Assembly (NCBI RefSeq): GCF_000183725.1
Contig: NC_014762.1
Span: 124,001-188,000, forward strand
Source: Sulfuricurvum kujiense DSM 16994
GTDB lineage: Bacteria > Campylobacterota > Campylobacteria > Campylobacterales > Sulfurimonadaceae
Direction: 5' to 3'
Length of the DNA: 64,000 bases
This document shows positions 11,745 through 59,022 of this stretch, in pieces (the first letter of the stretch is position 1; each line of letters opens with the position of its first letter). The notes beneath the pieces were generated by a model. It searched no databases. It was not told the DNA's origin and saw nothing but the letters and a program-made list of their open reading frames with translations. A program made the translations under genes and the position numbers.

Positions 11745-11772
11745 GTACTTTTCTGTTTAGTCAGAAAAGTAC
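11745..11772. repeat. Perfect 11-bp hairpin flanking nested-stem element
   Basis: GTACTTTTCTG and CAGAAAAGTAC pair around TTTAGT, directly after the MFS stop codon. A related hairpin at 11958-11983 closes the other side of the intergenic element. Confidence 0.8.
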
Positions 11773-11784
11773 CAAAAGAGCATA

Positions 11785-11854
11785 CCGTGATCCAAGAACG
11801 CTCGTTCCTCTCGGCACTACTGCCTCCGGAACGGCTCTAGGTATTGGATCACGG
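11785..11854 (-). repeat. Nested-stem intergenic element, copy 1
   Basis: An 11-bp outer stem (CCGTGATCCAA/TTGGATCACGG) encloses a 6-bp inner stem (CGTTCC/GGAACG). The inner loop contains, on the - strand, GCAGTAGTGCCGAG, and the inner stem is followed by AGCGTTC. The same order of parts appears in copies 2 and 3 with different stem sequences. It lies between convergent genes. Confidence 0.75.
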
Positions 11855-11871
11855 GAATTTTAAATAATAAT

Positions 11872-11946
11872 GCCCTCACGCCACACTAAGAGCAAGGTCA
11901 CCCGCAGTAGTGCGGAGGCGTACCGACAGCGATTTGGGGTGAGGGC
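11872..11946 (+). repeat. Nested-stem intergenic element, copy 2
   Basis: An 8-bp outer stem (GCCCTCAC/GTGAGGGC) encloses a shorter inner pairing (GGT/ACC region) whose loop contains GCAGTAGTGCGGAG, followed by AGCGATT. It is inverted relative to copy 1, 18 bases away. Confidence 0.72.
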
Positions 11947-11957
11947 GATTTCTTTTG

Positions 11958-11983
11958 ATACTTTTCTATGAAAAGAAAAGTAT
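11958..11983. repeat. 10-bp hairpin flanking nested-stem element
   Basis: ATACTTTTCT and AGAAAAGTAT pair around ATGAAA, just past the thiG stop codon (thiG reads toward it). The arms are nearly the same as those of the hairpin at 11745-11772. It may also help end thiG transcription. Confidence 0.75.
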
Positions 11984-11991
11984 AGAAATGA

Positions 11992-12768
11992 TTAAAACTG
12001 AATCATCCCATCAACCGGTGAGCTTGCGGTCGCATACGGACGTTTCGGGATGCGTCCCGCAAGATAGCTTAAACGTCCTGCAATTACAGCATTCTTCATA
12101 GCTTCCGCCATCAGTATCGGATTTTGCGCCTGCGCAATCGCGGTGTTCGTCAAAACTCCGTCCGCTCCGAGTTCCATCGCTAACGCAGCATCACTCGCAC
12201 ATCCGATTCCCGCATCAACGATAATCGGCACTTTGACCGCTTCACGGACAAACACGATGTTATATTTGTTTTGAACGCCGAGACCTGATCCGATCGGAGC
12301 GGCGAGCGGCATGATCGCATGGGCACCCGCATCTTCCAATCGGCGTGCCATAATCGGATCATCCGAGGTATACGCCATAATAGTAAAACCGTCTTTGGCT
12401 AACACTTCACACGCTTTGATCGTCTCCAAAACATCGGGGTAGAGAGTTTTTTGGGTATCGCCGATTACTTCGAGTTTGATCAAATCGATCCCCGTCGCTT
12501 CGCGGGTAAGACGGAAAAGGGTAATCGCCTCTTCGGCTGTCGTACATCCGGCAGAGTTTGGCAGAAACTTGACGTTCGTTCCCGCAAAGGTATCACGGAG
12601 ATTCGGCTCATTCGGATTGGTGATGTTCAAACGGCGTACGGCGACGGTGATCAGCTCAGAACCCGAGGCCAAAGTTGCCGCTTTGGTTGTTTCAAACGAG
12701 TCGTATTTACCGCTTCCGACGATGAGTCGGCTTCCGAGAGTATATTTTCCGATTTGTAATGTATGCAT
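11992..12768 (-). CDS. thiG: Thiazole synthase
   Basis: The 258-residue protein matches ThiG over its whole length. It forms the thiazole phosphate ring of thiamin from deoxyxylulose 5-phosphate, dehydroglycine and ThiS thiocarboxylate. Lys98 ([11 protein letters not shown]) is the Schiff-base lysine, and the phosphate-binding TIM-barrel loops are visible as APIGSGLGV and [10 protein letters not shown]. The other thiamin genes (thiS, thiH, thiF) are not in the window. It lies 14 bases downstream of purN on the same strand, so nnrD-purN-thiG probably form one transcript. The RBS is AAAGGATATGG-like, just before the ATG. Confidence 0.96.
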
Positions 12769-44198: not shown

Positions 44199-46607
44199 TT
44201 ATTGGAGGAGTTTTAAAACGTTTTGCTGCACAGCGTTGGCTTGGCTCATCGCATAGCTTCCTGATTGTGCAAGGATGTTAAATTTAGAGAAGTTTGCACT
44301 CTCTGCCGCGAAATCGACATCACGGAGTTGTGATTCCGCCGCTTTAACGTTAACTTGAGTCACGCTGATGTTGTTAATTGTAGCCGTCAACTGGTTTTGA
44401 ACCGAACCGAGGTCTGCGCGGATCGTATCGAGATCCCCGATAGCGGCATCGAGAGTATCGATCGCTTTCATGGCATCTGTGAGATTGAGGACGCTGATAC
44501 TGGAGAGGTTCGTCACCTCGCCCGCATCGATTCCAACCCGACCGGAGTTCTCCGTATTCGGCATCAACGTTGATCCGGCAGCGATGGTCGGAGCCGTACC
44601 TGTTCCGCGAAGCAATGTCAAATCTGCAGAGAGGGTGATAGCCGCACCGGTCGTGATATCGACCGTTACTTTATCCCCCGCACTCATTGCTGAAGCACCG
44701 GTTTGAGCGGCAGTAAGATCTTGCATCAGAACGGTTCCCGCTTTGATCACGGTACCGGTTGCGAGGGTTGAACCCGCTTTGATCGTCATATCCGCATTGA
44801 GGGTAATGGCGGATGAGTTGATGACCGTCCCCCCGATCGTTGAACCCTCTTTGAGCGTACTTGCGGCGGCCAAAGAGCTTCCCGCTTTCAAATCAGTCGT
44901 TGTATAGGTTGTAACGGCGGATGAGTTGACCGTATCGGCACCGAGCACCGATCCCGCTTTGAGTTTGGAAGCGGCCGCAAGAATTGATCCCGATTTGAGC
45001 GTCATATCTTCCGATACGGTAGCGGTGGAACTGCTGACAATGTTACCGCCGAGTACCGAACCGACGTTGATGGTCGATGCTGTGGCAATAGAGGAGTTGG
45101 CAGTACCGCTGAGATCGACGTTGATCGTCATATCAGAGGTAAGGGTTAAGGATGCCGTCAACGTAACGTCCGAAGAGAGAACATCCCCTTTGTGGTACGT
45201 CACGCCGTTGACGGTAAAGTCTTGTTGTACTAACGTACCTGCATCAAAAATCGTACCGCTTACGAGGGTAGAACCGGCCGTGATATACATATCGGCCGAA
45301 AGAGCTACGGCAGCCGTTAGATTAACAGCGGCTCCCATTGTGGTCCCTTTGGCAAATGTCGTTCCCGCTGCTGCGGTCGTTCCCGCTTTGAGGGTTCCGT
45401 CCAAGACCAACGTGGTAGCTGCAGTCAAGTTAACATCTCCCCCGATGGTGGTTCCCACTTTCAACGTCGAACCGACGGCGATCGAAGAGCCAGCCGCAAG
45501 GATTGAGTCTTTAACCATACTGGTAGCCCCTGAGAGGTTGATCGTCCCTCCGACGGCACCGGCACCGATACCGCTGACTTGGAACTCTGCCGCCCCTTTT
45601 TGAACCAGTTCGATGTATCCGACCGTAGAGAGCTGATTCGCCGTTCCGCCGAAGACGTCACTCACATTCCCCTCTACTTTGATCGCACGACCGTCGGTTG
45701 CTTTGAGGGTTATTTTTCCATCATCGGTGATCGTTGCCGCAACACCCGTTTGGGTGGTTTTGCCATTGATCGCCGCCATCAATGCGCCGTCGCCGTCATT
45801 GGCTTTGACATTGATCGCCCCGATGTTGATTCCGTTAATCGCAAATCCCGATCCTGTAGTACCCGCCGCAATCGCACTTCCAGAGGTTACTTCAACGACC
45901 GCTTTGGCACGGATACCGGTAATACCGCTGTGGGAGTTGATCTCATCGGCCAATGCACCCATACCGTTTTCCGGTGTATTATTGTATTGAATATCGATTG
46001 CTTTCATCGTGATGTTTTCACCCGTCAAGGCACTTTTCATCGTCAATTGCACACTTCCCACTTCCGAAGCGAGGTTCAATTGAGCACGGCTGGTATGACC
46101 GATTTTATTCGGCTCTGTTGAAGCAACCGAAAAGTTGACCCCTTCGTTTGAGCTGGCACCCATTTGGATAGTTTTATTGGTAAACGATCCGGAGAGGAGT
46201 TTCTGACCGTTGAAAGAGGTAGTTTTTGCAATGGTGTTAAGCTCTTCCATCAAACGGCTGATATCTTTTTGAATCGCAAGACGTGAAGAGGTGTTTTGCC
46301 CATCAGATGATGCTTGAACTGCTTTGGTTTTAATGGTGTCGAGGATTTTTGAGTACTCGTTGAGTGCACCGTCCGCCGTTTGGATCAAACCGATTGCATC
46401 GTTACCGTTAGAGATCGCTTGTCCCAGAGAGTTTGCTTGGTTACGAAGCGCATTGGCAATAACCATCCCTGATGCATCGTCTGCGGCTTTGTTAATACGA
46501 AGACCTGAACTGAGTTTGGAGAGAGACTCGTCCAAATTACGATTGTTCATTACCCCACTTGTATGGGCAGTCATTGCTGCGATGTTAGTGTTAATTCGAA
46601 AACCCAT
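44199..46607 (-). CDS. flaB: Flagellin with repeat-bearing insert, sigma54-driven copy
   Basis: The 802-residue flagellin has the standard N-terminal D0/D1 helices (MGFRINTNIAAM, LDESLSKLSSGLRINKAADD) and C-terminal helices (LTDAMKAIDTLDAAIGDLD to NVLKLLQ). Campylobacterial flagellins are usually 500-580 residues; the excess is a repeat-rich insert at about 354-687 that should form the exposed outer domain. ILDTIKTKAVQAS at the D1 site that TLR5 recognises in other bacteria is of the campylobacterial type. It is a near-duplicate of the gene at 46830. A sigma54 promoter at 46661-46674 mirrors C. jejuni flaB, hence the symbol. Ser/Thr richness makes it a glycosylation target. Confidence 0.94.
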   Translation of the reverse strand: MGFRINTNIAAMTAHTSGVMNNRNLDESLSKLSSGLRINKAADDASGMVIANALRNQANSLGQAISNGNDAIGLIQTADGALNEYSKILDTIKTKAVQASSDGQNTSSRLAIQKDISRLMEELNTIAKTTSFNGQKLLSGSFTNKTIQMGASSNEGVNFSVASTEPNKIGHTSRAQLNLASEVGSVQLTMKSALTGENITMKAIDIQYNNTPENGMGALADEINSHSGITGIRAKAVVEVTSGSAIAAGTTGSGFAINGINIGAINVKANDGDGALMAAINGKTTQTGVAATITDDGKITLKATDGRAIKVEGNVSDVFGGTANQLSTVGYIELVQKGAAEFQVSGIGAGAVGGTINLSGATSMVKDSILAAGSSIAVGSTLKVGTTIGGDVNLTAATTLVLDGTLKAGTTAAAGTTFAKGTTMGAAVNLTAAVALSADMYITAGSTLVSGTIFDAGTLVQQDFTVNGVTYHKGDVLSSDVTLTASLTLTSDMTINVDLSGTANSSIATASTINVGSVLGGNIVSSSTATVSEDMTLKSGSILAAASKLKAGSVLGADTVNSSAVTTYTTTDLKAGSSLAAASTLKEGSTIGGTVINSSAITLNADMTIKAGSTLATGTVIKAGTVLMQDLTAAQTGASAMSAGDKVTVDITTGAAITLSADLTLLRGTGTAPTIAAGSTLMPNTENSGRVGIDAGEVTNLSSISVLNLTDAMKAIDTLDAAIGDLDTIRADLGSVQNQLTATINNISVTQVNVKAAESQLRDVDFAAESANFSKFNILAQSGSYAMSQANAVQQNVLKLLQ
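44545..45545 (-). repeat. About eight degenerate 35-50 residue repeats in flagellin (flaB copy)
   Basis: The coding repeats follow the pattern [A/S]-x-T-L-x-x-D-M-T-[L/I]-K-A-G-S-x-L-A-x-x-[S/T]-x-[L/I]-K-x-G-[S/T]-x-[L/I]-G, for example TIKAGSTLATGTVIKAGTVL and TLKSGSILAAASKLKAGSVL. Beta-strand-forming hydrophobics alternate with Gly/Ser/Thr, suggesting a stacked beta fold. Boundaries are approximate. Confidence 0.8.
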
Positions 46608-46660
46608 GTTAAATCCTTAATCGTGGTTTTGCGTCCATGCGCGTATTTAAACGGATTAAA

Positions 46661-46674
46661 GCAAAAATAGTTCC
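46661..46674 (-). promoter_or_regulatory. Sigma54 promoter of the flaB copy
   Basis: On the - strand CTGGAACTATTTTTGCTTTA has GG (complement of 46673-46674) and GC (complement of 46661-46662) exactly 10 bases apart, and lies about 53 bases before the ATG. Confidence 0.78.
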
Positions 46675-46710
46675 AGAATTAAGGTATATAGTTTTAAGAA
46701 GAATAAGAAG

Positions 46711-46746
46711 AGAGAAAAAGAGTTGATCGGGACAAGCCCGATCAAC
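46711..46746 (-). terminator. Rho-independent terminator of upstream flagellin gene
   Basis: On the - strand GTTGATCGGG-CTTGTC-CCGATCAAC, a 9-10-bp stem, is followed by TCTTTTTCTC. It separates the sigma28-driven flagellin from the sigma54 unit below. Confidence 0.9.
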
Positions 46747-46829
46747 GTGCAAGAGGCTATTGTAGCAAACGAAGCATGTTTTCAGAGAAACGTATTACGC
46801 AACCAAAAGGTTGCTATACGATCTTGTTA

Positions 46830-49238
46830 CTATTGTAACAATCTCAATACGTTTTGCTGCACAGCATTGGCTTGGCTCATCGCATAGCTTCCTGATTGTG
46901 CAAGGATGTTAAATTTAGAGAAGTTTGCACTCTCTGCCGCGAAATCGACATCACGGAGTTGTGATTCCGCCGCTTTAACGTTAACTTGAGTCACGCTGAT
47001 GTTGTTAATTGTAGCCGTCAACTGGTTTTGAACCGAACCGAGGTCTGCGCGGATCGTATCGAGATCCCCGATAGCGGCATCGAGAGTATCGATCGCTTTC
47101 ATGGCATCTGTGAGATTGAGGACGCTGACACTGGAGAGGTTCGTCACCTCGCCCGCATCGATTCCGACACTACCGGAGTTCTCCGTATTCGGCATAAAGG
47201 TTGATCCGGCAGCGATGGTCGGAGCCGTACCATCTCCGCGAAGCAATGTCATATCTTCAGAGAGGGTGATAGCTGCACCGGTCGTGATATCGACCGTTAC
47301 TTTATCCCCCGCACTCATTGCTGCTGCACCGGTTTGAGCGGCGGTAAGATCCTGAGTCAGAACGGTTCCCGCTTTGATCACGGTACCGGTTGCGAGGGTT
47401 GAACCCGCTTTGATCGTCATATCCGAATTGAGGGTAATGGCGGATGAGTTGATGACCGTCCCCCCGATCGTTGAACCCTCTTTGAGCGTACTTGCGGCGG
47501 CCAAAGAGCTTCCCGCTTTCAAATCAGTCGTTGTATAGGTTGTAACGGCGGATGAGTTGACCGTATCGGCACCGAGTACCGATCCCGCTTTGAGTTTGGA
47601 AGCGGCCGCAATAATTGATCCCGATTTGAGCGTCATATCTTCCGATACGGTTGCACTCGAACTGCTGACAAGGTTACCGCCGAGTACCGAACCGACGTTG
47701 ATGGTCGACGCTGCGGCAATGGAAGAGTTGGCAGTACCGCTGAGATCGACGTTGATCGTCATATCAGAGGTAAGGGTTAAGGATGCCGTCAACGTAACGT
47801 CCGAAGTGAGAGTATCCCCTTTGCTGTACGTTACGCCGTTGACGGTAAAGTCTTGTTGTACTACGGTTCCTGAGTCAAGGATAGAACCGCTTACGAGGGT
47901 AGAACCGGCCGTGATGAACATATCCGATGAAAGCGCTACGGCAGCTGACGTATTGAAAGCGGCTCCCGTTGTGGTCCCTTTGGCAAATGTCGTTGCCGAT
48001 AGAAGGGTTGTCCCCGCTTTGAGGGTTCCGTCCAAGACCAACGTGGTAGCTGCAGACAAGTTAACATCTCCCCCGATGGTGGTTCCCACTTTCAACGTCG
48101 AACCGACGGCGATCGAAGAGCCAGCCGCAAGGATTGAGTCTTTAACCATACTGGTAGCCCCTGAGAGGTTGATCGTCCCTCCGACGGCACCGGCACCGAT
48201 ACCGCTGACTTGAAACTCTGCCGCCCCTTTTTGAACCAGTTCGATGTATCCGACCGTAGAGAGCTGATTCGCCGTTCCGCCGAAGACGTCACCGACGTTC
48301 CCCTGTACTTTGATCGCACGACCGTCGGTTGATTTGAGGGTCATTTTTCCATCATCGGTGATCGTTGCCGCAACACCCGTTTGGGCGGTTTTCGCGTTGA
48401 TCGCCGCCATCAATGCGCCGTCGCCGTCATTGGCTTTAGTATTGATTGCTCCGATGTTGATTCCGTTGATAGTGAAATCGGTTCCCGTAGCACCCGCTGC
48501 AATCGCACTTCCAGAGGTTACTTCAACGACCGCTTTGGCACGGATACCGGTAATACCGCTGTGGGAGTTGATCTCATCGGCCAATGCACCCATACCGTTT
48601 TCCGGTGTATTATTGTATTGAATATCGATTGCTTTCATCGTGATGTTTTCACCCGTCAAGGCACTTTTCATCGTCAATTGCACACTTCCCACTTCCGAAG
48701 CGAGGTTCAATGTCGCACGGCTGGTATGACCGATTTTATTAGTCTCTGCAGAAGCAACCGAAAAGTTAACCCCTTCGTTTGAGCTGGCACCCATTTGGAT
48801 AGTTTTATTGGTAAACGATCCGGAGAGGAGTTTCTGACCGTTGAAAGAGGTAGTTTTTGCAATGGTGTTAAGCTCTTCCATCAAACGGTTGATATCTTTT
48901 TGAATCGCAAGACGTGAAGAGGTGTTTTGCCCATCAGATGATGCTTGAACTGCTTTGGTTTTAATGGTGTCGAGGATTTTTGAGTACTCGTTGAGTGCAC
49001 CATCCGCCGTTTGGATCAAACCAATACCGTCGTTACCATTAGAGATCGCTTGTCCCAGAGAATTTGCTTGGTTACGAAGCGCATTGGCAATAACCATCCC
49101 TGATGCATCGTCTGCGGCTTTGTTAATACGAAGACCTGAACTGAGTTTGGAGAGAGACTCGTCCAAATTACGATTGTTCATTACGCTATTACTGTGAGCG
49201 TTCATCGCCGAAATGTTAGTATTAATTCTGAAACCCAT
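46830..49238 (-). CDS. flaA: Flagellin with repeat-bearing insert, sigma28-driven copy
   Basis: This 802-residue flagellin is the same length as its neighbour and differs mainly near the N-terminus (ISAMNAHSNSV against IAAMTAHTSGV), in the variable domain and at scattered sites of the repeat array; long nucleotide runs are identical. The upstream sigma28 promoter (TAAA-N15-TCCGATAT) makes it the counterpart of C. jejuni flaA, probably the major filament protein. The leader carries a hairpin AAGAGC-TTTT-GCTCTT at 49257-49272 that may stabilise the mRNA. AAAGGATTTATC precedes the ATG. Confidence 0.94.
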   Translation of the reverse strand: MGFRINTNISAMNAHSNSVMNNRNLDESLSKLSSGLRINKAADDASGMVIANALRNQANSLGQAISNGNDGIGLIQTADGALNEYSKILDTIKTKAVQASSDGQNTSSRLAIQKDINRLMEELNTIAKTTSFNGQKLLSGSFTNKTIQMGASSNEGVNFSVASAETNKIGHTSRATLNLASEVGSVQLTMKSALTGENITMKAIDIQYNNTPENGMGALADEINSHSGITGIRAKAVVEVTSGSAIAAGATGTDFTINGINIGAINTKANDGDGALMAAINAKTAQTGVAATITDDGKMTLKSTDGRAIKVQGNVGDVFGGTANQLSTVGYIELVQKGAAEFQVSGIGAGAVGGTINLSGATSMVKDSILAAGSSIAVGSTLKVGTTIGGDVNLSAATTLVLDGTLKAGTTLLSATTFAKGTTTGAAFNTSAAVALSSDMFITAGSTLVSGSILDSGTVVQQDFTVNGVTYSKGDTLTSDVTLTASLTLTSDMTINVDLSGTANSSIAAASTINVGSVLGGNLVSSSSATVSEDMTLKSGSIIAAASKLKAGSVLGADTVNSSAVTTYTTTDLKAGSSLAAASTLKEGSTIGGTVINSSAITLNSDMTIKAGSTLATGTVIKAGTVLTQDLTAAQTGAAAMSAGDKVTVDITTGAAITLSEDMTLLRGDGTAPTIAAGSTFMPNTENSGSVGIDAGEVTNLSSVSVLNLTDAMKAIDTLDAAIGDLDTIRADLGSVQNQLTATINNISVTQVNVKAAESQLRDVDFAAESANFSKFNILAQSGSYAMSQANAVQQNVLRLLQ
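47176..48176 (-). repeat. About eight degenerate 35-50 residue repeats in flagellin (flaA copy)
   Basis: Same array as in the other flagellin, offset by 2631 bases. Differences cluster in the segment around 47860-48030 (FAKGTTTGAAFNTSAAVAL here, FAKGTTMGAAVNLTAAVAL there), while the repeats on either side are nearly identical. Boundaries are approximate. Confidence 0.8.
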
Positions 49239-49304: not shown

Positions 49305-49331
49305 ATATCGGACGATAAAAAAAAAGCTTTA
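49305..49331 (-). promoter_or_regulatory. Sigma28 (FliA) promoter of the flaA copy
   Basis: On the - strand TAAA (complement of 49328-49331), 15 bases including a nine-T run, then TCCGATAT (complement of 49305-49312). It has one mismatch to TAAA-N15-GCCGATAT and is about 67 bases before the ATG. Confidence 0.9.
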
Positions 49332-49336: not shown

Positions 49337-50002
49337 TTAGGGAGAAATTTGAATCCAGTCGGATGTATTGGAATCGTAAATTTTGGTTACGTTGGTATCG
49401 CGTAGAAATAAAATGGTTCCGTTAATAGGCGAAGCCGGATAGGGGTCGGTTGAAAGGGCGACGATTGCGCTGTTGTATCCGCGGGTCTGTGTGGAGACTT
49501 CCGAACCGTTATAGAGTTTCATATGGTTGGTTTCACCGATCCCGATTTCGAGCAGTATATCATCACCCTGAGCACTCGAATGGGTCGCATTGGTTTGTAA
49601 AATACCGTCTTCCCCTCGGCTGAGGAGACGGCCGAGTACATTTGCATTGGGAGAGATGGATGTCGTATTATTATCGGCATAAGTGGCGTTTGTATTATGG
49701 GTACCAAAATCGTAGGTCGTGTAGCTGATATTACGACCCCATGCGTCTTTCCCCAAACCAATCACAACCGGAACGGTAGCATTTACCTCTTTTAGTAGTT
49801 CAAAATAGGCATCATTATCCGGATTTGAAGCAGTATTGAGTAATCGGCTTCGGATCACTTCAAGCATCGTTTTGCTGTTTTGCTGTTTTAGAGTATTGCC
49901 TTGAATAACTGTGTAATATCCCATAGTCGCCAGTACTGCTGCCAAAATTCCTGCCATGACAATGGCAAGCATTACTTCGATAAGCATAAATCCTTGTCTC
50001 AT
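49337..50002 (-). CDS. Type II/IV pseudopilin-like prepilin
   Basis: The 221-residue protein has a class III leader MRQG, then FMLIEVMLAIVMAGILAAVLATMGYY: prepilin peptidase cleaves after Gly and Glu5 follows. The globular part has many Thr and Asn residues and no Cys pair like the major pilins. It directly abuts the platform protein gene at 50003. It may be a minor pseudopilin that starts or lengthens the fibre. It is the last gene of the pilus operon, with flaA following on the same strand and no clear terminator in between. Confidence 0.85.
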   Translation of the reverse strand: MRQGFMLIEVMLAIVMAGILAAVLATMGYYTVIQGNTLKQQNSKTMLEVIRSRLLNTASNPDNDAYFELLKEVNATVPVVIGLGKDAWGRNISYTTYDFGTHNTNATYADNNTTSISPNANVLGRLLSRGEDGILQTNATHSSAQGDDILLEIGIGETNHMKLYNGSEVSTQTRGYNSAIVALSTDPYPASPINGTILFLRDTNVTKIYDSNTSDWIQISP

Positions 50003-51043
50003 TTATGCATGTCCTACTTGATCGATGATCCCTTGTTGGATTAATACCTGAGTCAAGACGATGGTGAAAAATTCGACAAATACGGCAAACGACAGTAGTA
50101 AAATAGCCACTATCGTCATACTGCGAAAAAACTTACTCGCCATAGTGAGTGCATTAAATCTGGCCCGGTCCGCAAATTCACCAAACATATTGCCCAGTTG
50201 AGCTACTGTTCCCGCTCCGGCGAGGAGGTGCTGTTCGATCTCTTCGAAAAAGGGGATACTCCAAAAGTTTTTTTCGCCTCGGCTCACTTGGGCAAGAATC
50301 CCCTCGAATTGCTTTGATATGCGAGGAATAATGGTGCTGTTTGCGGCGGTTTTAAAGGTCATTTTTAACGAAACGCCATTTTTAAGCATTTCGCTGAGCA
50401 GACTCAGTAGGATGAATTTTTCAAAATAACCGATAACGAGAGAAGAGATCGGCAGGTGCGACGCTATCCGTTTCGCCACGCCTTGAATGGCTCCACTATA
50501 GTTAAAAAGGGCGATCATAACGATAAGAAAATAGGCCGAAAAGAAAAGCAATCCTCCTAATAGAAGATTGCTTAGAATAAGAGCCATATCCAAATGTTCA
50601 GCGATAATAGCGTAGATTCTCGGATCGTAGCTTTTGGCTTCACTGATGTGAAACGGAACAGCAAAAAAACGGATGAAAATAATGATGATTGCCGTCAACG
50701 TAAAATAGATGACAGGAAGGGCAATTTTGTCGTTTGACTCTTGATGAAATCGGTTTTTTATCTCTAGATAATTTACAACCGATTTGAGCGTTTTGACGAA
50801 TCCACCCCCTTTTTCTGCCATAGCAACAAACTGGATGATATCGGGGGAAGGGGATATGTATTTCTCTATCGCATTGGAAAAAGAGGCTCCTTCTTGGATT
50901 GAGCGGGTAATATTGATGTATATGGCGCGTTCGTCCTTGTCTTTTGCCGTATTTTGAAGTAAATTGAGTGCATTAGTAAGGCTCTTTCCATTTTCCAAAG
51001 ATAACTGCAGCGCCTTTAAGAGGGTGAGTACATCAGGTTTCAT
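50003..51043 (-). CDS. Type II secretion / type IV pilus inner-membrane platform protein (GspF/PilC-like)
   Basis: The 346-residue protein has the two GspF repeats (about 10-130 and 205-330), with SLENGKSLTNALNLL and EMLKNGVSLKMTFKTAA at their starts, and three predicted membrane helices. It anchors the assembly ATPase and turns pilin polymerisation. It resembles CtsF of the Campylobacter competence system or MshG. The start overlaps the ATPase gene by 11 bases. Confidence 0.9.
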   Translation of the reverse strand: MKPDVLTLLKALQLSLENGKSLTNALNLLQNTAKDKDERAIYINITRSIQEGASFSNAIEKYISPSPDIIQFVAMAEKGGGFVKTLKSVVNYLEIKNRFHQESNDKIALPVIYFTLTAIIIIFIRFFAVPFHISEAKSYDPRIYAIIAEHLDMALILSNLLLGGLLFFSAYFLIVMIALFNYSGAIQGVAKRIASHLPISSLVIGYFEKFILLSLLSEMLKNGVSLKMTFKTAANSTIIPRISKQFEGILAQVSRGEKNFWSIPFFEEIEQHLLAGAGTVAQLGNMFGEFADRARFNALTMASKFFRSMTIVAILLLSFAVFVEFFTIVLTQVLIQQGIIDQVGHA

Positions 51044-52595
51044 GGACGTATCCTAACGATAGCAATTCGCTAGAGAGCGTTTCATAATCACATGTCCCCA
51101 TCTCGAATAAATACGCAGCCGATTGGAAATAGCTAAACGTGATGAAGTGTTCCCATGCTTTAAAGACGGTGCTGTTTTTAAGGGCAAGATAAAATTGGTA
51201 GCGTATTTTCATATCTCCGGGGATAAAAACCATATCCAGCAATAATGCCCGACCACTGTATCCAGTAAAATTGCATCGGATACAGCCGCTTTTTTCAAAC
51301 CCATACGTTTCGGTGCTAAAAAATGCTTTTCCGTCTTCAACGCCGCAGGGTTGTTTACACGAGCAGAGTTTAGGAATAAGCCGTTGAGCTACAACTCCGC
51401 TGAGTGAATAGGCGAGGATAAAGAGATCCCCCCCCTCATCACGGATACGTTCCATCGCCATAAAACTGTTGGGTGTATGGAGTGTAGAGAAAACCATGTG
51501 TCCGCTGTGCGCCGCTTTAAGTCCGGTGAGAATCGATTCGCGATCCCGCATTTCCCCGATAACAATGACGTCAGGGTCTTGACGCATGATCGATTTCATC
51601 CCCTCCGCAAAGGTAAAGCCGCTTGCCTCGTTGATCTGATACTGGGTAACGAAGTCGATTTTATACTCGATCGGATCTTCAATCGTATAGATGATTTCGT
51701 GGAGTCTGTCCCGCTGATTTAAAATGGCGTTGAGCGTTGTTGTTTTCCCGCTTCCGGTCGGTCCTACGACGAGAAAAAAGCCGCTGGACTGGTTGACGAA
51801 ATGGTGAAGGTGTTCCGACATAGGGTGGCTTTTAGGGAAGAGGGAGTTAAGCGATTTGATATTGCTCGCTTTGTCCAAAATACGCAAAACGATATTTTCT
51901 CCATACTGCGACGGGGCAATTTCAATACGAAAATCGATGGTGCGGTTTTCGTATTCGCGGGAGAAACTTCCCCCCTGAGGGGCATAGACATTAATCATAT
52001 CGATGTTGCAGCGCTCTTTGATAATCAGAGCAAAACGTTGCGCCAACTCATGATTGAGGAGGTATCGGGCTATGATTTTTCCGTCGATGCGGTAGCGGAG
52101 CCAATAAAACGATTCGTAGGCATTGATATGGATATCACTGGCGGAACGTTGAATACCGTATTCCAGAAGCATTTCAAAAATATCGATGACTTCATTTTCT
52201 CCGTCATCCATCGCATTAAACTGCTTGATTTTTCGCTCAATACTCTCGGGATCGACGCGCAGAAGAGACGTATATTTTTGTTGAAACTCACGAACGGGGA
52301 TATTTTTTTGCTCGATTTTTTTATGGACTTTTCCGCTGAGTTCGGCAAGACGTTTTTCCCCTAAAAGCTCTTTTCGAAGAATTGTGAGGGTGTCATCGCG
52401 TTCGTCGGCGATAATCATTTCGTATTCTTTCATGAGTTCGAGATTATAGGTTTTTGAGGTCTCTTTTTTTTGGATGAAGTGGTGAGAGAGTGCAATATCG
52501 AGAAGATGCTTTTTAATGCCGATTTGCTGATAATAGTATTGCTCTTTTTGGCATACTTCCAGCTGTTTCGACGTCAATATCTTTTTAATATTCAT
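51033..52595 (-). CDS. Type II secretion / type IV pilus assembly ATPase (GspE/PilB-like)
   Basis: The 520-residue protein has an N-terminal GspE-N-like region, a PAS-like domain, and the secretion ATPase core with Walker A GPTGSGKTT at 278-286, Asp box TIEDPIE, Walker B VIVIGEMRD and His box HSGHMVFSTLHTPNS. A zinc-binding set is visible in CSCKQPC and CIRCNFTG. It drives pilus extension, like CtsE of Campylobacter. ATG 52595 was chosen over the GTG six bases upstream. Confidence 0.93.
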   Translation of the reverse strand: MNIKKILTSKQLEVCQKEQYYYQQIGIKKHLLDIALSHHFIQKKETSKTYNLELMKEYEMIIADERDDTLTILRKELLGEKRLAELSGKVHKKIEQKNIPVREFQQKYTSLLRVDPESIERKIKQFNAMDDGENEVIDIFEMLLEYGIQRSASDIHINAYESFYWLRYRIDGKIIARYLLNHELAQRFALIIKERCNIDMINVYAPQGGSFSREYENRTIDFRIEIAPSQYGENIVLRILDKASNIKSLNSLFPKSHPMSEHLHHFVNQSSGFFLVVGPTGSGKTTTLNAILNQRDRLHEIIYTIEDPIEYKIDFVTQYQINEASGFTFAEGMKSIMRQDPDVIVIGEMRDRESILTGLKAAHSGHMVFSTLHTPNSFMAMERIRDEGGDLFILAYSLSGVVAQRLIPKLCSCKQPCGVEDGKAFFSTETYGFEKSGCIRCNFTGYSGRALLLDMVFIPGDMKIRYQFYLALKNSTVFKAWEHFITFSYFQSAAYLFEMGTCDYETLSSELLSLGYVHET

Positions 52596-52635
52596 AGGCA
52601 CTTTTTGGTTTAATTATAACACAAAAAGAGAATAT

Positions 52636-53130
52636 TCAGCGCGAAAGGTAAAATTTAAAACGTGCTGAAGTTAGGTTGTGTTCCAACGTCGCTTGTTGGG
52701 AGGTATAATTGAGGATAAGCTCTTTTAACGCTTTATCTTGGGTTGAGTTGTTTTCCGCACTGGTCATAATATAGAATGCACTCCCTGATTCGGTTGCCGT
52801 ATAAGGATTGAAGCCGCTCGGAGAAACGGGAACAAACCCGTTTCTCCCCCCGTCTAGTGAATAAGGTGTAGAGGTATTGCACTCTAATTCGGTTAGGAGA
52901 GTATTCGATGCGTCAACAGAAGCATTCAGCTCTTTTGGAAATTGCTCGGAAAGACTCTTACATTGAAACACCATGGATTCAATGAGATTCATGTGAGACT
53001 GGAGAGCACTTTTGTATTGTGACTTGGTTAAGGAGGAGGTATTTAGATAAAAATATCCTATCGCCCCTAATAACCCGACCAAAAATATAGTCGCAGCAAT
53101 TTCAATGAGAGTAAATCCTTTATTTTTCAT
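52636..53130 (-). CDS. Prepilin-like protein
   Basis: This 164-residue protein has leader MKNKG followed by FTLIEIAATIFLVGLLGAIGYFYLN, a class III signal with Glu at position 5. Cys residues in VFQCKSLSE and ELECNTS could form a disulfide. The frame extends to a TTG inside the upstream gene, but ATG 53130 gives the proper leader. It is a minor pilin or pseudopilin, 3 bases downstream of the third pilin. Confidence 0.85.
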   Translation of the reverse strand: MKNKGFTLIEIAATIFLVGLLGAIGYFYLNTSSLTKSQYKSALQSHMNLIESMVFQCKSLSEQFPKELNASVDASNTLLTELECNTSTPYSLDGGRNGFVPVSPSGFNPYTATESGSAFYIMTSAENNSTQDKALKELILNYTSQQATLEHNLTSARFKFYLSR

Positions 53131-53132
53131 TA

Positions 53133-53726
53133 TTAATTTTGTTGAACGATCATAATCCAATGTTTGTGATCATTGGCTCCAAGTATTTCGGTATAGCAAA
53201 ATGCATCTCCGAGGGCGGAATATTGGCTGGCTGCTGTTCCGAAATTCATGTTGTCGGAGACATTTAAATCCAAACTTGTATTGATTTCATGGTTGAAGAT
53301 AGCACAATACTGATCATCATCTTTGACACCGGCCAGTTTATAAGAGGTACCATTCAAGTCAATAGGAAACTGAAATGCAGGATGTCCGTCAACTGCTGAA
53401 GTATTCAGCTCCCATCCTACTGTGGTCATTTCGATGATATCTTTAGGAAGATGCTTAAGGATCATGACATTAGTTGCGTTAAAATCGGACAAATTGACAT
53501 CCAATGGGGCAATACCGAACTGCGCTATATAAACATCATACGCACCTGAGAGTTGTCTGCCTTGATCCATCAAAGCTGCAATACGTGCTTTTTTAGACGT
53601 TAAATCAATGTTGAAAAGATTTTTGTAATACAGCATTGTAACGGTTGATAAAACACCAAACAAGATAACGGCAATCGTCATTTCAACGAGAGAGATACCT
53701 TTTCTGTGATTTTTATAGATAGTCAT
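53133..53726 (-). CDS. Type IV pilin-like protein, diverged paralogue
   Basis: The 197-residue prepilin has a basic leader (MTIYKNHRKG) and ISLVEMTIAVILFGVLS as its hydrophobic helix, with Glu5. Its C-terminal half aligns with the two pilins upstream (DDDQYCAIFNHEIN; DAFCYTE), keeping the two Cys, so it is a diverged member of the same family. AAGGAG precedes ATG 53726. A perfect sigma28 promoter lies about 41 bases upstream, so it and the genes after it can be transcribed separately from the rest of the operon. Confidence 0.87.
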   Translation of the reverse strand: MTIYKNHRKGISLVEMTIAVILFGVLSTVTMLYYKNLFNIDLTSKKARIAALMDQGRQLSGAYDVYIAQFGIAPLDVNLSDFNATNVMILKHLPKDIIEMTTVGWELNTSAVDGHPAFQFPIDLNGTSYKLAGVKDDDQYCAIFNHEINTSLDLNVSDNMNFGTAASQYSALGDAFCYTEILGANDHKHWIMIVQQN

Positions 53727-53766
53727 TGTACACACTCCTTGTGTTCTAAAAGAAAAAATAAATTCT

Positions 53767-53793
53767 ATATCGGCTTTTTTTCCTAATCGTTTA
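53767..53793 (-). promoter_or_regulatory. Perfect-consensus sigma28 promoter of pilin gene at 53133
   Basis: On the - strand TAAA (complement of 53790-53793), 15 bases, GCCGATAT (complement of 53767-53774), an exact match to TAAA-N15-GCCGATAT. Confidence 0.9.
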
Positions 53794-53815
53794 ATATTGA
53801 TTGGGGAAAAAAGTC

Positions 53816-53835
53816 AAAAACGGCGCAGTGCGCCG
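53816..53835 (-). terminator. Terminator after second pilin gene
   Basis: On the - strand CGGCGC-ACT-GCGCCG is followed by TTTTTGACTTTTTT. It closes the unit starting at the sigma28 promoter at 54490-54516. Confidence 0.9.
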
Positions 53836-53842
53836 CCTCTTG

Positions 53843-54448
53843 TTAAGGTTTAACTATAAAGAGTGTTAGGTGCGATCCGTTGTTCCAGCAGAATACCGGA
53901 CCTAAATTTTGATACGCGATGGTTGGATTGGTATGGAATGCAGTTGCATTAGACGCATTGTATTCGACACTTGCATTGAACTCATGGTTGATAATCGCAC
54001 AATATTGCTCATCATCTGAAGTGTTCAAGCGTCCGGTAGCATTTTTATCCAGTTTGTACTGAAGCGCGATTCCGCTTGTCCCCGCAATGCCGGTAGTGTT
54101 GTTTAATTCCCAGCCGCCGGTGCCGTCCGCATTTCCTGAGGCCAATTCCGTAATAGCTACCGGAAGGCGGCTAAGGATCGAAACGTTCGCGTCATCGAGT
54201 TCGGTAAGGTTGATATCAAGGCTTGCGACCGAACCTACTTGCGCAATGTATGCGTCATACGCATTCGACATTTGTGCCGCTTGATCCAAAAGTGCCGCTA
54301 CACGTGCTTTTTTAGCCGTCAAGTCCGTATTAAAAAAGTTTTTGTAGTATTTAACCCCGATAGCGGAGAGAACTCCAAATAAGATAACAGCAATAATCAT
54401 CTCAATGAGAGAGATACCTTTTCGATGACTTTTGTAGATATTACGCAT
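53843..54448 (-). CDS. Type IV pilin-like protein, paralogue 2
   Basis: The 201-residue prepilin has leader MRNIYKSHRKG, then ISLIEMIIAVILFGVLS with Glu5. The globular domain has the Cys pair DDEQYCAIINHEF and GPVFCWNNG, the likely disulfide-bonded D-region. It is very similar to the pilin at 54605, differing at scattered positions. ATG 54448 with AAAAGGGG was preferred to the upstream in-frame extension, which lacks a ribosome site. A sigma28 promoter lies upstream and a terminator downstream, so it can be expressed as a single gene. Confidence 0.88.
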   Translation of the reverse strand: MRNIYKSHRKGISLIEMIIAVILFGVLSAIGVKYYKNFFNTDLTAKKARVAALLDQAAQMSNAYDAYIAQVGSVASLDINLTELDDANVSILSRLPVAITELASGNADGTGGWELNNTTGIAGTSGIALQYKLDKNATGRLNTSDDEQYCAIINHEFNASVEYNASNATAFHTNPTIAYQNLGPVFCWNNGSHLTLFIVKP

Positions 54449-54489
54449 AATTATGTACCCCTTTTGTCTGAAAGTAAAGATGAATACCA

Positions 54490-54516
54490 TATCGGTTGTT
54501 TTTGGGGATTGTTTAA
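54490..54516 (-). promoter_or_regulatory. Sigma28 promoter of pilin gene at 53843
   Basis: On the - strand TAAA (complement of 54513-54516), 15 bases, ACCGATAT (complement of 54490-54497): one mismatch to the FliA consensus, 42 bases before the ATG. Confidence 0.87.
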
Positions 54517-54575
54517 TGAAAAGAAAAAAAGAGGGGATGAAATTCCACTCCTCCCTCTAAGAGGGGGTGGAAAAG

Positions 54576-54602
54576 AGTAAAGAGCGGCGTAGCGCCGACT
54601 CT
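54576..54602 (-). terminator. Terminator or attenuator after first pilin gene
   Basis: On the - strand AGAGTCGGCG and CGCCGCTCT pair with one bulge around CTA, then TTACTCTTTT. A second hairpin (TCCAC-CCCTC-TTAG-AGGG..GTGGA) follows. Read-through from the sigma54 operon would be reduced here. Confidence 0.75.
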
Positions 54603-54604
54603 TA

Positions 54605-55207
54605 TTAAGGTTTAACTACGAAGAGCGTAAGGTGTGTTCCGTTGTTCCAGCAGAATACTTGTCCGAAACGTTGGTAAGCACTTGTTGCACTAACAGGGAA
54701 TACGGTTGCATTAGACGCATTGTATTCGATACTTGCATTGAACTCATGGTTAATAATCGCACAATATTGCTCATCATCTGAAGTGTTCAAGCGTCCGGTA
54801 GCATTTTTATCCAGTTTGTATTGAAGTGCGATACCTGTTGTACCAGAAATACCGGTAGTTTTGTTCAATTCCCAACCGCCGGTGCCGTCCACATTTCCTG
54901 AAGCCAATTCGGTAATAGCGATTGGAAGACGGCTAAGGATCGAAACGTTCGCGTCATCAAGCTGGGTAAGGTTGGTATCAAGGTTCGCGATTGAACCCAC
55001 TTGTACAATGTATGCGTCATACGCATTCGACATTTGTGATGCTTGATCCAAAAGTGCCGCTACACGTGCTTTTTTAGCCGTTAACTCCGTATTAAAGAAG
55101 TTTTTATAGTATTTAACTCCGATAGCGGAGAGAACTCCAAATAAAATAACGGCAACAATCATCTCAATAAGAGAGATACCTTTTCTCATTCCTGTGTACT
55201 GTTTCAT
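54605..55207 (-). CDS. Type IV pilin-like protein, paralogue 1
   Basis: The 200-residue prepilin has leader MKQYTGMRKG, then ISLIEMIVAVILFGVLSAIG with Glu5, and the same Cys pair (DDEQYCAIINHEF, GQVFCWNNG) as its neighbour. Of the three pilins it is the first in the operon. The leader RNA holds a hairpin at 55225-55241. A partial FliA-like box (ACCGATCT) lies upstream, but the TAAA is 18 rather than 15 bases away, so it probably relies on read-through from the operon promoter. Confidence 0.88.
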   Translation of the reverse strand: MKQYTGMRKGISLIEMIVAVILFGVLSAIGVKYYKNFFNTELTAKKARVAALLDQASQMSNAYDAYIVQVGSIANLDTNLTQLDDANVSILSRLPIAITELASGNVDGTGGWELNKTTGISGTTGIALQYKLDKNATGRLNTSDDEQYCAIINHEFNASIEYNASNATVFPVSATSAYQRFGQVFCWNNGTHLTLFVVKP

Positions 55208-55224
55208 TGTGTATCCTTTTTTGT

Positions 55225-55241
55225 GATCTTGTTTTAAGATC
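55225..55241. other. Short hairpin in the first pilin's leader
   Basis: GATCTT-GTTTT-AAGATC, followed on the + strand by GG and eight T. On the - strand, which is the coding strand here, it sits in the leader 18 bases before the pilin start and may protect or process the mRNA. Its T-run favours termination only of antisense transcripts. Confidence 0.5.
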
Positions 55242-55249
55242 GGTTTTTT

Positions 55250-55693
55250 TTATTGTGGAATCTTTAACACATAGGGACGAATTGTGATTGAAAATCCGAA
55301 TTCATCCCCCGTGCATCCTTGACCGATGCAGCTGCTGACTAATTCAACGTCATCATTTTTGACAACATCCAAGAGCCGTTTCAATAGTAGGTATGAATAG
55401 GTGTCATGAATGCCTCCTTGAATAGTTAATTTTTTTTGGTCGATCTTTACTTCGGCGTCCATCCCCAATTCCTGGAGCATAGCGTCGTATTGATCATTTT
55501 TAGTACGCAGAACATCTTGTTCTGCGTACACAGCAACTGGCTGCTCAACGGCAGTTTTTAAAGCACTAAAGGTTTTTACCTCTTCGGCTACCGTTTTGTC
55601 TTCGTATACAATATCGAGAAAATAAAAGTATGTTGAGACTAAAATTGTTAATAAAATAACAACAAATAGACCCAAGAGACTATATTTTTTCAT
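55250..55693 (-). CDS. PilO/GspM-like inner-membrane assembly protein, tentative
   Basis: The 147-residue protein has one N-terminal membrane helix (LLGLFVVILLTILVSTYFYFL), then a coiled part and a small periplasmic alpha/beta domain with Cys residues in SSCIGQGCTG. Size, topology and position after a PilN-like gene fit PilO or GspM, but no sequence signature was seen. It overlaps the gene at 55680 by 14 bases. Confidence 0.65.
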   Translation of the reverse strand: MKKYSLLGLFVVILLTILVSTYFYFLDIVYEDKTVAEEVKTFSALKTAVEQPVAVYAEQDVLRTKNDQYDAMLQELGMDAEVKIDQKKLTIQGGIHDTYSYLLLKRLLDVVKNDDVELVSSCIGQGCTGDEFGFSITIRPYVLKIPQ

Positions 55694-56474
55694 TACAATA
55701 TTGCACGATGCCCTGAGCAACGTCTTCCTTTATAATTTTCGCTTCCGGTGGTAACAACCTGACAAAAGCGTTGAGGTTTGGTGTCACCACCTCAGCACAT
55801 AAGCTATCGTTTTGATAGCTTATCTGCTGAAGGGTGGACTCCGTCTCTTTCGTAAGATTTTCAATTTTTTCCAATTCATGGACAATATCTACTTTTTTGG
55901 TCATTGCAAACGAGGTTTGGCAATTTTTAGTCACCAGCTCTTTGTACTCTTTAACGAGTGTATCTCTGTTGGTTATGTTAATTTCAGTCGCATTGAGATA
56001 GCCGTATCCGGCATACAAAATTCCTGAGGTTACTACGATGGTACACGCCAGCAAAAAGCTTCCGACCCAGGTATCTTTCCGCTCCTTATCCAGATTGATA
56101 GAGACAAGCTTATCCCCTTTCGTGTTATCAGCATAAAGAGTTCCATAACCGCGTTCTGTCGCAAAATCTTCGGGTTTATCGAGGATATAATCAATAATTT
56201 TGTCGTCTTCGACGACTACACCGACATTTTTATAGTCCAGTTCAAAAATGATCACACTTTTTCCTTGGTTCTTTGAAGCAAGGAGAAGGATGTTTTCATA
56301 AACGAGCTTCTCTTTCGGAAGAAATGCGATATAGTTGATCCCCTCCGAGTGCTTTCGTAATGAAACTTTGACCGCTGAAGAATCAAGATCCTGACGCGCA
56401 TAGTTGTAGACCTGCGTGCGGATATTGCTGATATCATTGGTTAAACTGATAGATCCTGCTGTAAAGATTGCCAT
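55680..56474 (-). CDS. PilM-PilN/GspL-like assembly protein, tentative
   Basis: The 264-residue protein begins with a cytoplasmic part (about 1-140), has one membrane helix near 143-165 (GSFLLACTIVVTSGILYAGYG) and a periplasmic coiled coil and domain. This is bitopic GspL/PilN-like architecture. No actin-like signature was clear. It follows the secretin by 2 bases and overlaps the PilO-like gene, as in competence pilus operons of Campylobacter (the cts genes). Confidence 0.65.
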   Translation of the reverse strand: MAIFTAGSISLTNDISNIRTQVYNYARQDLDSSAVKVSLRKHSEGINYIAFLPKEKLVYENILLLASKNQGKSVIIFELDYKNVGVVVEDDKIIDYILDKPEDFATERGYGTLYADNTKGDKLVSINLDKERKDTWVGSFLLACTIVVTSGILYAGYGYLNATEINITNRDTLVKEYKELVTKNCQTSFAMTKKVDIVHELEKIENLTKETESTLQQISYQNDSLCAEVVTPNLNAFVRLLPPEAKIIKEDVAQGIVQYCNEKI

Positions 56475-56476
56475 GG

Positions 56477-57922
56477 CTATTTCATCACATATTTGATTAC
56501 GCGAGGGGTAACGACGATTACCATTTCGCTTTTCGTATTAGAGGTATGGCGTGCTCCACCTACAACGCCTGCCGCGCTGTCACCAAGGCCTGGCAACCCG
56601 TTCCAGCCTTTATCGCTTTTGTTGCGGAAAAGACCTGAAATAACAATGGGTACTCCCGGTTGGACCCGCATGGTGTTATTGATTGCTTTGGTGACGGTTT
56701 GCGGCTGAGAAAATTTATTGCCGTTCACTTCAAAAGAGGTATAGCCGACGATGTCGTTAATTTTAAGTCCGATATCGGTGATGACGGTGCCATCGAGCAT
56801 ATTGGATTTAAGATTGATCTCTAATCCGCTCAGTGCGGTTGCGCTGGTAGTAGAAACTTGAGCGGTTCCGTTGCCCACAGACGTATTTTGAATACCGCTG
56901 ATATAAGGGGCTTCAACTCCGTCGGTCAGTTTAACATTAGTTCCTGCAAGTCCGAGAAGCTTCGGTCTTTGAACGCTTTCGACTTTTCCGAAGTTTTCGA
57001 GTGCATTGACAAGTGCTTTCCCGTTATAGGTGTCATTTTTCATGATCATTCCGAAGGTGAGAGGGACGGCTGAGGCACCGGCAGAGCCCAAACTTCCTGT
57101 TGCCGAAGCGACAAAACTGAGACCGTCTTTTGCGAGACTCGGAACAAGACTCCAGTCAATCCCTAGCGCATAGTTGTCTTTGAGCTCAACATCGTAAATA
57201 GAAATTTCATACTCGATAACATAGAGATTGTTGCGGAGTATCTCAAGATATTTCATGATATCGCTATACTCTTTTTCGCGTGCCGAAAAACTGACGGAAG
57301 AGGTAATAGCATCTGTCGTGACATTGCTTGCACCCATCGAAGTAATGCTTGCTTTTAGTATTTCCGGCAGACCGTTAATGGAAGGAATTTTAAGAGTTAC
57401 CGTACGTAAATTCCCTAGATAGAAAGTGTTGTCATCATAAAGAATACTAAGTTTGTCTCCCACCGTTTTTTGTAGTATTTTTCCAAAAGAGATATTGGAT
57501 GCCGAAAGATTGATGGTGGTTTCCGTAAGCAAATAATCATTTTTGCCTGTGTATTCATTATTAGAAGCCCCGTTGGCTGAGGAAGAGGTGCTGAATTTAT
57601 TTGAATTGACCGATTCTGCCTGAAGTTGAAATACAACATTCTCGTTGGTTGCTTCGGTCAGCAATGCAATAACGTCGCTTAATTCCGCTCCCATGATTTT
57701 TGCCCGTTTGATGATCTCTTTATCGGGGATAATTTGCGGTTCGATATGGAAATTATCCGCCTTTACTTCCACAACCTGAACCGCTGGCTCGGAACGCTGA
57801 ATCTGAGTGGTAGGGTTATCGAGTTCTTTGAGATGCATTTCCGGTGTCAGAGTTTCTTGTTTAGTCGCGACACTACACCCGGTTAATCCTAAAAGTACGG
57901 CAGCAAGTATAATTGAACGCAT
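56477..57922 (-). CDS. Secretin (PilQ/MshL-like outer-membrane channel)
   Basis: The 481-residue protein starts with a lipoprotein signal (LLGLTGCSVAT), then an STN/N0-type segment, an N1 domain and the secretin core (about 300-470), ending VPIVISGLFRNKSDKGWNGLPGLGD and MVIVVTPRVIKYV. It makes the outer-membrane ring through which the pilus or DNA passes, like MshL or CtsD. It overlaps the PilP-like gene by 1 base. Confidence 0.9.
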   Translation of the reverse strand: MRSIILAAVLLGLTGCSVATKQETLTPEMHLKELDNPTTQIQRSEPAVQVVEVKADNFHIEPQIIPDKEIIKRAKIMGAELSDVIALLTEATNENVVFQLQAESVNSNKFSTSSSANGASNNEYTGKNDYLLTETTINLSASNISFGKILQKTVGDKLSILYDDNTFYLGNLRTVTLKIPSINGLPEILKASITSMGASNVTTDAITSSVSFSAREKEYSDIMKYLEILRNNLYVIEYEISIYDVELKDNYALGIDWSLVPSLAKDGLSFVASATGSLGSAGASAVPLTFGMIMKNDTYNGKALVNALENFGKVESVQRPKLLGLAGTNVKLTDGVEAPYISGIQNTSVGNGTAQVSTTSATALSGLEINLKSNMLDGTVITDIGLKINDIVGYTSFEVNGNKFSQPQTVTKAINNTMRVQPGVPIVISGLFRNKSDKGWNGLPGLGDSAAGVVGGARHTSNTKSEMVIVVTPRVIKYVMK

Positions 57923-58311
57923 TAATTTGCTCCTGTCGTGAAATAGATGGTTTGGATTCGACCGGCATCATCAACAGTGATATAATTGCTGGTGATATTG
58001 CGGATAAAATATTTGTGGTTGTTTGCATAAAAAGGGTCTCCCTCTTTTAGAACAACGGTGTTCTCTCCAATTTTAAGAAGTATGAATTTCCCTTTATTGG
58101 TCTCTAAAAAACAGTTATAGATGAGTTGAGAAAGATCAAATTCCGTTTTAGACGGTAATGAAGGGGGCGCTAACAGTGGCGGCAGAGGCATAGGACGTGC
58201 ATCTGATGTTGCTACAGGAGCTTTCTTCGGCTTTACAGGTTCACGGAAAAACGGGTTATAGGCCGCATTTAGCGATAGTGCAAGAAAAAGAAATGACCAA
58301 AAATAGTTCAT
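57922..58311 (-). CDS. PilP-like periplasmic assembly protein, tentative
   Basis: The 129-residue protein has a signal peptide (MNYFWSFLFLALSLNAAY), a Pro-rich linker (PLPPLLAPPSLPS) and a small beta domain (FILLKIGENTVVLKEGDPFY and KYFIRNITSNYITVDD). This is like PilP/GspC-type linkers that join the inner-membrane platform to the secretin. The gene order matches the Campylobacter ctsR-ctsD start. It is the first gene of the pilus operon and lies behind a sigma54 promoter. Confidence 0.7.
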   Translation of the reverse strand: MNYFWSFLFLALSLNAAYNPFFREPVKPKKAPVATSDARPMPLPPLLAPPSLPSKTEFDLSQLIYNCFLETNKGKFILLKIGENTVVLKEGDPFYANNHKYFIRNITSNYITVDDAGRIQTIYFTTGAN

Positions 58312-58347
58312 ATCGCCACTTTCATAGAGATTATTTGACGATAAAAA

Positions 58348-58361
58348 GCAAGAAGCGTACC
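58348..58361 (-). promoter_or_regulatory. Sigma54 promoter of the pilus operon
   Basis: On the - strand TTGGTACGCTTCTTGCTTTT matches TTGGCAC-N5-TTGCTTT at nearly every conserved position, with GG (complement of 58360-58361) and GC (complement of 58348-58349) 10 bases apart. It is 37 bases before the first gene. Confidence 0.88.
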
Positions 58362-58476
58362 AAGTTTATAAAATATATCTTTATCTTATGTAGGTTTGAT
58401 TTTTGAAGAAGATGGACTGTAATTTGCTTATGAGTATGTTTATTAATATTGTAGAAAGCAAAAAGAGTTTTTATTC

Positions 58477-59022
58477 ATGGAAATCAAACGATTAGAATCT
58501 CCGCTCTTGAATCCGTCGAGAAGAACATTTATAAAAAATGTGATAGCTTTATCGGCTTCAACATCGCTTTTTGCCGATAATAAAGAGAAAGACGAAATTC
58601 TCAGTGTTATCCGCAACGGTACTTCCTATAAAATTCCGTTTATTCGCGATGGCAAAATAGAAGAAAACGGCTATGATGATTTATGCCGTGTTTTTGCCGA
58701 TGTTCGTGCCGGAGTAGCTGTAAGAATGGATCCGAATTTATTTTTGATTTTGACAAAAGCCCAACAATGGCTGTCAAGCAATCATATTAATCGCCCTATT
58801 ATTCTGACATCCGGTTATCGTACGGAACACACGAATAGTATAACGGAGGGAGCAGCCTTTAATTCGATGCATTTGTACGGCAAAGCTGCCGATATAAAAA
58901 TCGAAGGCATTCCTGCAGATTATTTAGCGAGGCTGCTTAGGATGTGCGGCGGAGCCGGAATAGGAATATACCCGACCTTCGTCCATGTAGATACGTGGAG
59001 AGAACGGGCATGGAGAGGTTAG
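58477..59022 (+). CDS. DUF882/YcbK-like peptidase M15 family protein, Tat-exported
   Basis: The 181-residue protein has a twin-arginine signal (NPSRRTFIKNVIALSASTSLF), so it is exported folded. The C-terminal domain is M15/YcbK-like: ILTSGYRTEHTNS, FNSMHLYGKAADI and HVDTWRERAWRG give the His, Asp and His zinc ligands. Such proteins trim or bind peptidoglycan. It is divergent from the pilus operon and not obviously part of it. Confidence 0.85.
   Translation: MEIKRLESPLLNPSRRTFIKNVIALSASTSLFADNKEKDEILSVIRNGTSYKIPFIRDGKIEENGYDDLCRVFADVRAGVAVRMDPNLFLILTKAQQWLSSNHINRPIILTSGYRTEHTNSITEGAAFNSMHLYGKAADIKIEGIPADYLARLLRMCGGAGIGIYPTFVHVDTWRERAWRG

Follow-up and report, generated by a model that had tools for sequence, protein, structure and literature searches.

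A pilus operon beside the flagellin genes

The window analysed here is a stretch of 64,000 nucleotides from the cultured bacterium Sulfuricurvum kujiense DSM 16994 (contig NC_014762.1, positions 124,001 to 188,000 of the forward strand). Coordinates are counted from its first letter, and all counts for the "own genome" refer to the 2.82-Mb genome of this strain, in five contigs. An operon for a type IV pilus (T4P) occupies the minus strand from 58311 to 49337, directly followed by the flagellin genes flaA (start 49238) and flaB (start 46607). It quite likely encodes a compact T4P machine of a rare clade in which, as the promoter motifs suggest, three sigma factors share out the genes in the same sequence as in the flagellar cascade of these bacteria; pilus production probably keeps to the schedule of the flagellum. 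Along the minus strand the genes run g1, secretin, g3, g4, pilins A-B-C-D, ATPase, platform protein, pilin E, flaA and flaB.

57922..58311, minus: g1, 129 amino acids (aa); signal-like N-terminal segment, proline-rich linker, small domain; place kept in relatives
56477..57922, minus: secretin lipoprotein, PilQ/MshL-type (PF00263, 8e-17; TIGR02519, 1e-26, under the cut-off)
55680..56474, minus: g3, inner-membrane protein of 264 aa, by position PilM/PilN-like
55250..55693, minus: g4, about 147 aa, one membrane helix and a small domain, PilO-like by position
54605..55207, minus: pilin A, the first pilin (PF07963)
53843..54448, minus: pilin B (PF07963; start revised)
53133..53726, minus: pilin C, the conserved pilin of the array (PF07963)
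52636..53130, minus: pilin D, a minor pilin (PF07963)
51033..52595, minus: assembly ATPase, PilB/GspE-type, in a clade of its own (PF00437, 2e-81)
50003..51043, minus: PilC/GspF-type platform protein (PF00482, 1e-18)
49337..50002, minus: pilin E, minor, last gene of the operon; prepilin-like N-terminus; place kept in relatives
46830..49238, minus: flaA flagellin, 802 aa, adjoining the operon
44199..46607, minus: flaB flagellin, 802 aa, 3' of flaA

The core parts, of a kind shared by T4P and type II secretion systems (T2SS), were found by Pfam (secretin, PF00263; ATPase, PF00437; platform, PF00482), and a prepilin N-terminus with its methylation motif scores above the PF07963 cut-off in four pilins (A-D). 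No family match in Pfam or NCBIfam was obtained for g1, g3 or g4. The first of these may be PilP/MshK/GspC-like, judged on position and appearance alone; by place in the operon the three could correspond to PilP, PilM/N and PilO. The AlphaFold model of g3 has a predicted local distance difference test score of 48, with 70-80 in the C-terminal alpha/beta part and low values in the remainder. Among NCBIfam models the secretin is best matched by MshL of the mannose-sensitive haemagglutinin (MSHA) pilus, at 93.4 bits and far under the equivalog cut-off of 250.2, which leaves it outside the MSHA type; the operon also differs from MSHA in having no MshM-type ATPase and another gene order.

These parts could also build a pseudopilus for DNA uptake or secretion instead of a surface pilus, an alternative that seems unlikely but deserves weight. 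The succession of secretin, two inner-membrane proteins, ATPase and platform resembles that of the Campylobacter cts transformation operon, the operon has no gene for a retraction ATPase, and in a second structure comparison the pilin model was equally near the pseudopilin PulG and PilA1, its top matches at Z about 7, a result that is not firm (Foldseek with the pilin model gave no significant match). Against a pseudopilus stand the several tandem pilins, about 200 aa each with variable ends, and their flagellin-type promoters. So does the ATPase, whose clade is without near relatives in the rest of the order: among the PilB/GspE proteins sampled there, its profile scores about 1,100 bits within the clade and 292 for the best protein outside.

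Promoter motifs and their conservation

With the secretin as query, 17 further copies of the system were found, 12 in Sulfuricurvum, four in other genera of the family and one in another family. In the family sample (121 genomes) the system occurs in 13 Sulfuricurvum genomes, the own genome included, and in four genomes of other genera; nine named Sulfuricurvum contigs, overlapping with these carriers, also have it. The order sample (399 genomes) holds one carrier in another family, and when 175 genomes from that family were searched, no additional copy turned up. The pilus system is rare and patchy, and its gene order is kept in the further copies. The motifs discussed below are the following.

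58346..58363, minus: sigma54 promoter of g1, TTGGTAC-N5-TTGCTT, kept in all 18 copies that include g1
46659..46676, minus: sigma54 promoter of flaB, CTGGAAC-N5-TTGCTT (positive control)
54489..54515, minus: sigma28 promoter of pilin B, TAAA-N15-ACCGATAT, one mismatch, 67 nucleotides (nt) before start 54448
53767..53793, minus: sigma28 promoter of pilin C, exact TAAA-N15-GCCGATAT, 67 nt before start 53726
49305..49331, minus: sigma28 promoter of flaA (positive control)
52613..52620, minus: sigma70-type -10 box GTTATAAT, upstream of the ATPase gene
53816..53840, minus: hairpin between the genes of pilins B and C, terminator-like with 11 pairs and a T-rich tail, not conserved in relatives

An earlier reading of this DNA, made without database searches and here called the sequence-only reading, had placed a sigma54 promoter at the first gene of the operon, and this is borne out. 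The site, TTGGTACGCTTCTTGCTT, is of the canonical GG-N10-GC form and begins 52 nt 5' of the g1 start codon. It is present in all of the readable copies (18/18, the window and 17 others), mostly at a spacing of 52-54 nt, with two at 65-67 nt. The site is retained even though identity of g1 among copies drops to about 30%, and in the copies compared the flanks have diverged around an unchanged TGG.A and TTGCT. Among the other operon genes, TGGNAY-N5-TTGCW was found only at three middle pilins of two genomes, where an exact sigma54 box replaces the sigma28 box (L050, upstream of 6473 and 7240; L048, upstream of 13555), a hint that pilin paralogues may be able to switch promoter class. Strict sigma54 sites of the own genome include that of flgH, and the flgB site has one mismatch.

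The claim of sigma28 promoters at two pilin genes, one of them exact, likewise holds, for pilins B and C. The longest open reading frame of pilin B (54490) begins inside its own -10 box, so the true start is taken to be 54448. Pilin A (start 55207) has no convincing sigma28 site or other promoter of its own and is probably transcribed by read-through from the sigma54 promoter. In all 14 arrays long enough to read, a sigma28 box of the TAAA-N14-16-GCCGATWT type with 0-2 mismatches precedes at least one pilin, and it sits at the sole pilin or at the last main pilin (14/14). Arrays with a single main pilin, as in the other genera, mostly have it exact; exact boxes occur in a divergent Sulfuricurvum and in one copy each of the genera labelled g2, g7 and g9, and the copy from another family has one with a 14-nt spacer. 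Across the 18 carrier genomes the exact string occurs 55 times, versus 12 for the reversed control. When the 120-nt upstream stretches were shuffled, a match with at most one mismatch arose in about 0.09% of trials for sigma28 and about 0.04% for sigma54.

Near-exact intergenic sigma28 sites in the own genome precede, where the gene can be identified, pilins, flaA and flgM; the remaining ones precede unidentified genes or are probably chance. The proteins behind near-exact or exact boxes at G000:C4:946446 and C4:553675 are candidate late flagellar genes, and an early guess that the former encodes a flagellar assembly protein was not confirmed.

The ATPase gene has a third type of signal. In 13/13 copies a gnTAnaAT box lies 5' of it, with TATAAT in 12/13, and none of the other operon genes has gnTATAAT within 60 nt. 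The sequence-only reading had assigned secretin and platform together to a middle class. This part is not supported. The ATPase and platform genes lie 3' of the pilins behind a conserved sigma70-type box of their own, a housekeeping promoter, which takes them and pilin E out of the middle class. Operon genes other than g1 and the pilins have neither a sigma54 nor a sigma28 motif. The forms of all three motifs agree with start-site-mapped promoters of Campylobacter jejuni, which are CGATwt for sigma28, GGaa-N6-tTGCTt for sigma54 and gnTAnaAT without a -35 box for sigma70 (PMC3847290). A scan for terminators and -35/-10 pairs returned counts no higher than in shuffled sequence, and terminators were rejected as boundaries of the promoter classes, the window holding one good, unconserved hairpin.

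The pairing of a sigma54 site before g1 with sigma28 boxes at pilins is conserved across five genera and two families, which supports the sequence-only reading on this point and makes its observation stronger than it was put. The operon is, as had been noted, directly upstream of flaA on the same strand. This arrangement can be dispensed with: three Sulfuricurvum copies do not have it, nor do the other-genus copies with readable flanks. Proximity to a flagellin gene was rejected as the reason for the wiring, since many copies lack it. It is also very improbable that the motifs are chance matches or functionless remnants of neighbouring flagellin genes. Such an origin would fit the position next to flaA in the window and the partial matches that A/T-rich stretches yield, but the motifs are kept amid diverged flanks and in copies without an adjacent flagellin (L047, L048, L050, L053, L055, L057 and L082).

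Activators, sigma factors and other pilus loci

A full sigma54-activator domain is present in only two proteins of the own genome: one is a NifA equivalog, the other an FlgR-like response regulator that has no C-terminal DNA-binding domain. Four other carriers (G069, G048, G026 and G102) show a single activator, with an N-terminus of the FlgR type; completeness is 99% for G069, in which the activator gene runs to the contig end, and 95% for G048. Since the FlgR type stands alone in these four and the NifA upstream element TGT-N10-ACA was found at none of the copies, FlgR is the likely activator of the operon's sigma54 promoter. Control by NifA or another non-flagellar activator, with the flagellar link made through sigma28 only, would agree with the NifA equivalog in the own genome, yet given these same two observations it has little to recommend it and is rated improbable. 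The Fis-type C-terminal domain of FlgR is missing in Sulfuricurvum and G388 and present in G048 and G026 (L065 = G000:C4:2099617, L140-L142, L145). FliA is present in all carriers, and flgM of the own genome has a sigma28 box.

Three more PilB/GspE-type ATPases are encoded in the own genome, in one T2SS locus and two MSHA-like loci (L093, L094). No flagellar promoter boxes were found at the gene starts of these three loci, so the wiring is particular to the present operon and not general to pili. Positive controls with sigma28 or sigma54 boxes are flaA, flaB, flgM, flgH and flgB.

Proposed assembly order and comparison with known systems

The promoter arrangement suggests a mechanism in which sigma70 would transcribe the inner-membrane motor (ATPase, platform and minor pilin E), while sigma54 with FlgR would transcribe g1, secretin, g3, g4 and pilin A alongside the rod and hook genes and flaB. 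Exit of FlgM through the finished hook would then free FliA (sigma28), the main pilins would be transcribed alongside flaA, and the pilus would appear on flagellated cells once the hook is done. Transcription starts, the dependence on RpoN, FliA and FlgR, and the FlgM checkpoint are inferred from sequence. The strict form of the mechanism, in which the main pilins are withheld until hook completion and FlgM export, with motor, channel and filament under sigma70, sigma54 and sigma28 in parallel with export gate, rod/hook and filament, is offered tentatively, at somewhat under an even chance; a second filament, unrelated to the flagellum, would then be assembled in step with it. The pilus would most likely serve swimming cells for contact with surfaces or for attachment.

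A looser explanation is that the promoters are real and merely express the pilus in motile cells, read-through producing all parts at about the same time without an assembly order. It is less probable than the ordered scheme, though still a substantial competitor. Conserved terminators between the promoter classes are absent, and the sigma54 boxes that replace sigma28 at middle pilins of L048 and L050 indicate that the order is not strict. Speaking for an order are the occurrence of one promoter type per functional block throughout five genera and two families and, in the window, the terminator-like hairpin ahead of pilin C.

Some points weigh against an ordered, flagellum-timed pilus. Several Sulfuricurvum copies have a CGATTT or GTCGAT variant of the sigma28 box. 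The copies share ancestry, so the conservation counts are descriptive and not independent trials, and most sampled Sulfuricurvum genomes lack the operon, which is therefore dispensable. The promoter classes, with no conserved terminators between them, could be blurred by read-through; the genes for ATPase, platform and pilin E also lie 3' of the sigma28 promoters. As to the regulators, G026 and G102 are incomplete, so that a second activator could be missed, and flagella are common in the family, so the co-occurrence of FliA says little.

PilA of Pseudomonas and its relatives is sigma54-dependent, with PilS/PilR; there a dedicated PilR acts on the pilin, whereas here a flagellar activator is proposed to act on the secretin operon. 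Type IV pili are named among sigma54 targets (PMC12316311). Flagellar genes of C. jejuni are transcribed as early, middle (RpoN) and late (FliA) classes (PMC11187230). The cascades of C. jejuni and Helicobacter pylori have the same three promoter types, FlgR and a late sigma28 that serves the filament genes (PMC3847290; PMC11187230); their targets are mainly flagellar, whereas here a T4P is distributed over the same sigma factors. In the Campylobacterota, the FcpMNO/PflD motor cage consists of T4P-derived parts in the flagellar motor and by quantitative PCR is not regulated by RpoN or FliA (PMC11870540); it comprises motor parts without pilins, in contrast to the present pilus machine with pilins.

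The sequence-only reading knew of no described pilus with this wiring. As regards the combination this stands: no T4P split between sigma54 and sigma28 was found for the Campylobacterota in the literature, a search in which subscription journals lay mostly outside coverage and which leaves absence unproven. A partial precedent exists in Bdellovibrio, where the flp1/flp2 operon of the Tad (type IVb) pilus was shown with reporters to be FliA-driven (PMC5430801), so that there too pilin genes are under flagellar sigma28. That system differs in its Tad machinery, in having one FliA promoter for the operon and no sigma54 part described, and in that FliA is a general attack-phase regulator. Flagella and T4P are usually seen as alternatives or as linked by cyclic di-GMP; here they seemingly share one transcriptional assembly programme, which, if true, would mean that the checkpoint of the flagellum is open to use by another machine. 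The promoter triad yields sharp gene-by-gene predictions.

Some features of the flanking genes may be added. Both flagellins are unusually long (802 aa), with central repeats of 'aGstlaaGt'-like units (window 44199-49238). In L082, the copy from the other family, the gene after the operon looks by eye like a chemoreceptor (reverse complement, 10722-12662). At the opposite end of the operon in the window, 58477-59022 is a divergently oriented gene whose exported product looks by eye like a peptidase, with a twin-arginine-like N-terminus; this gene is kept beside g1 in many Sulfuricurvum copies.

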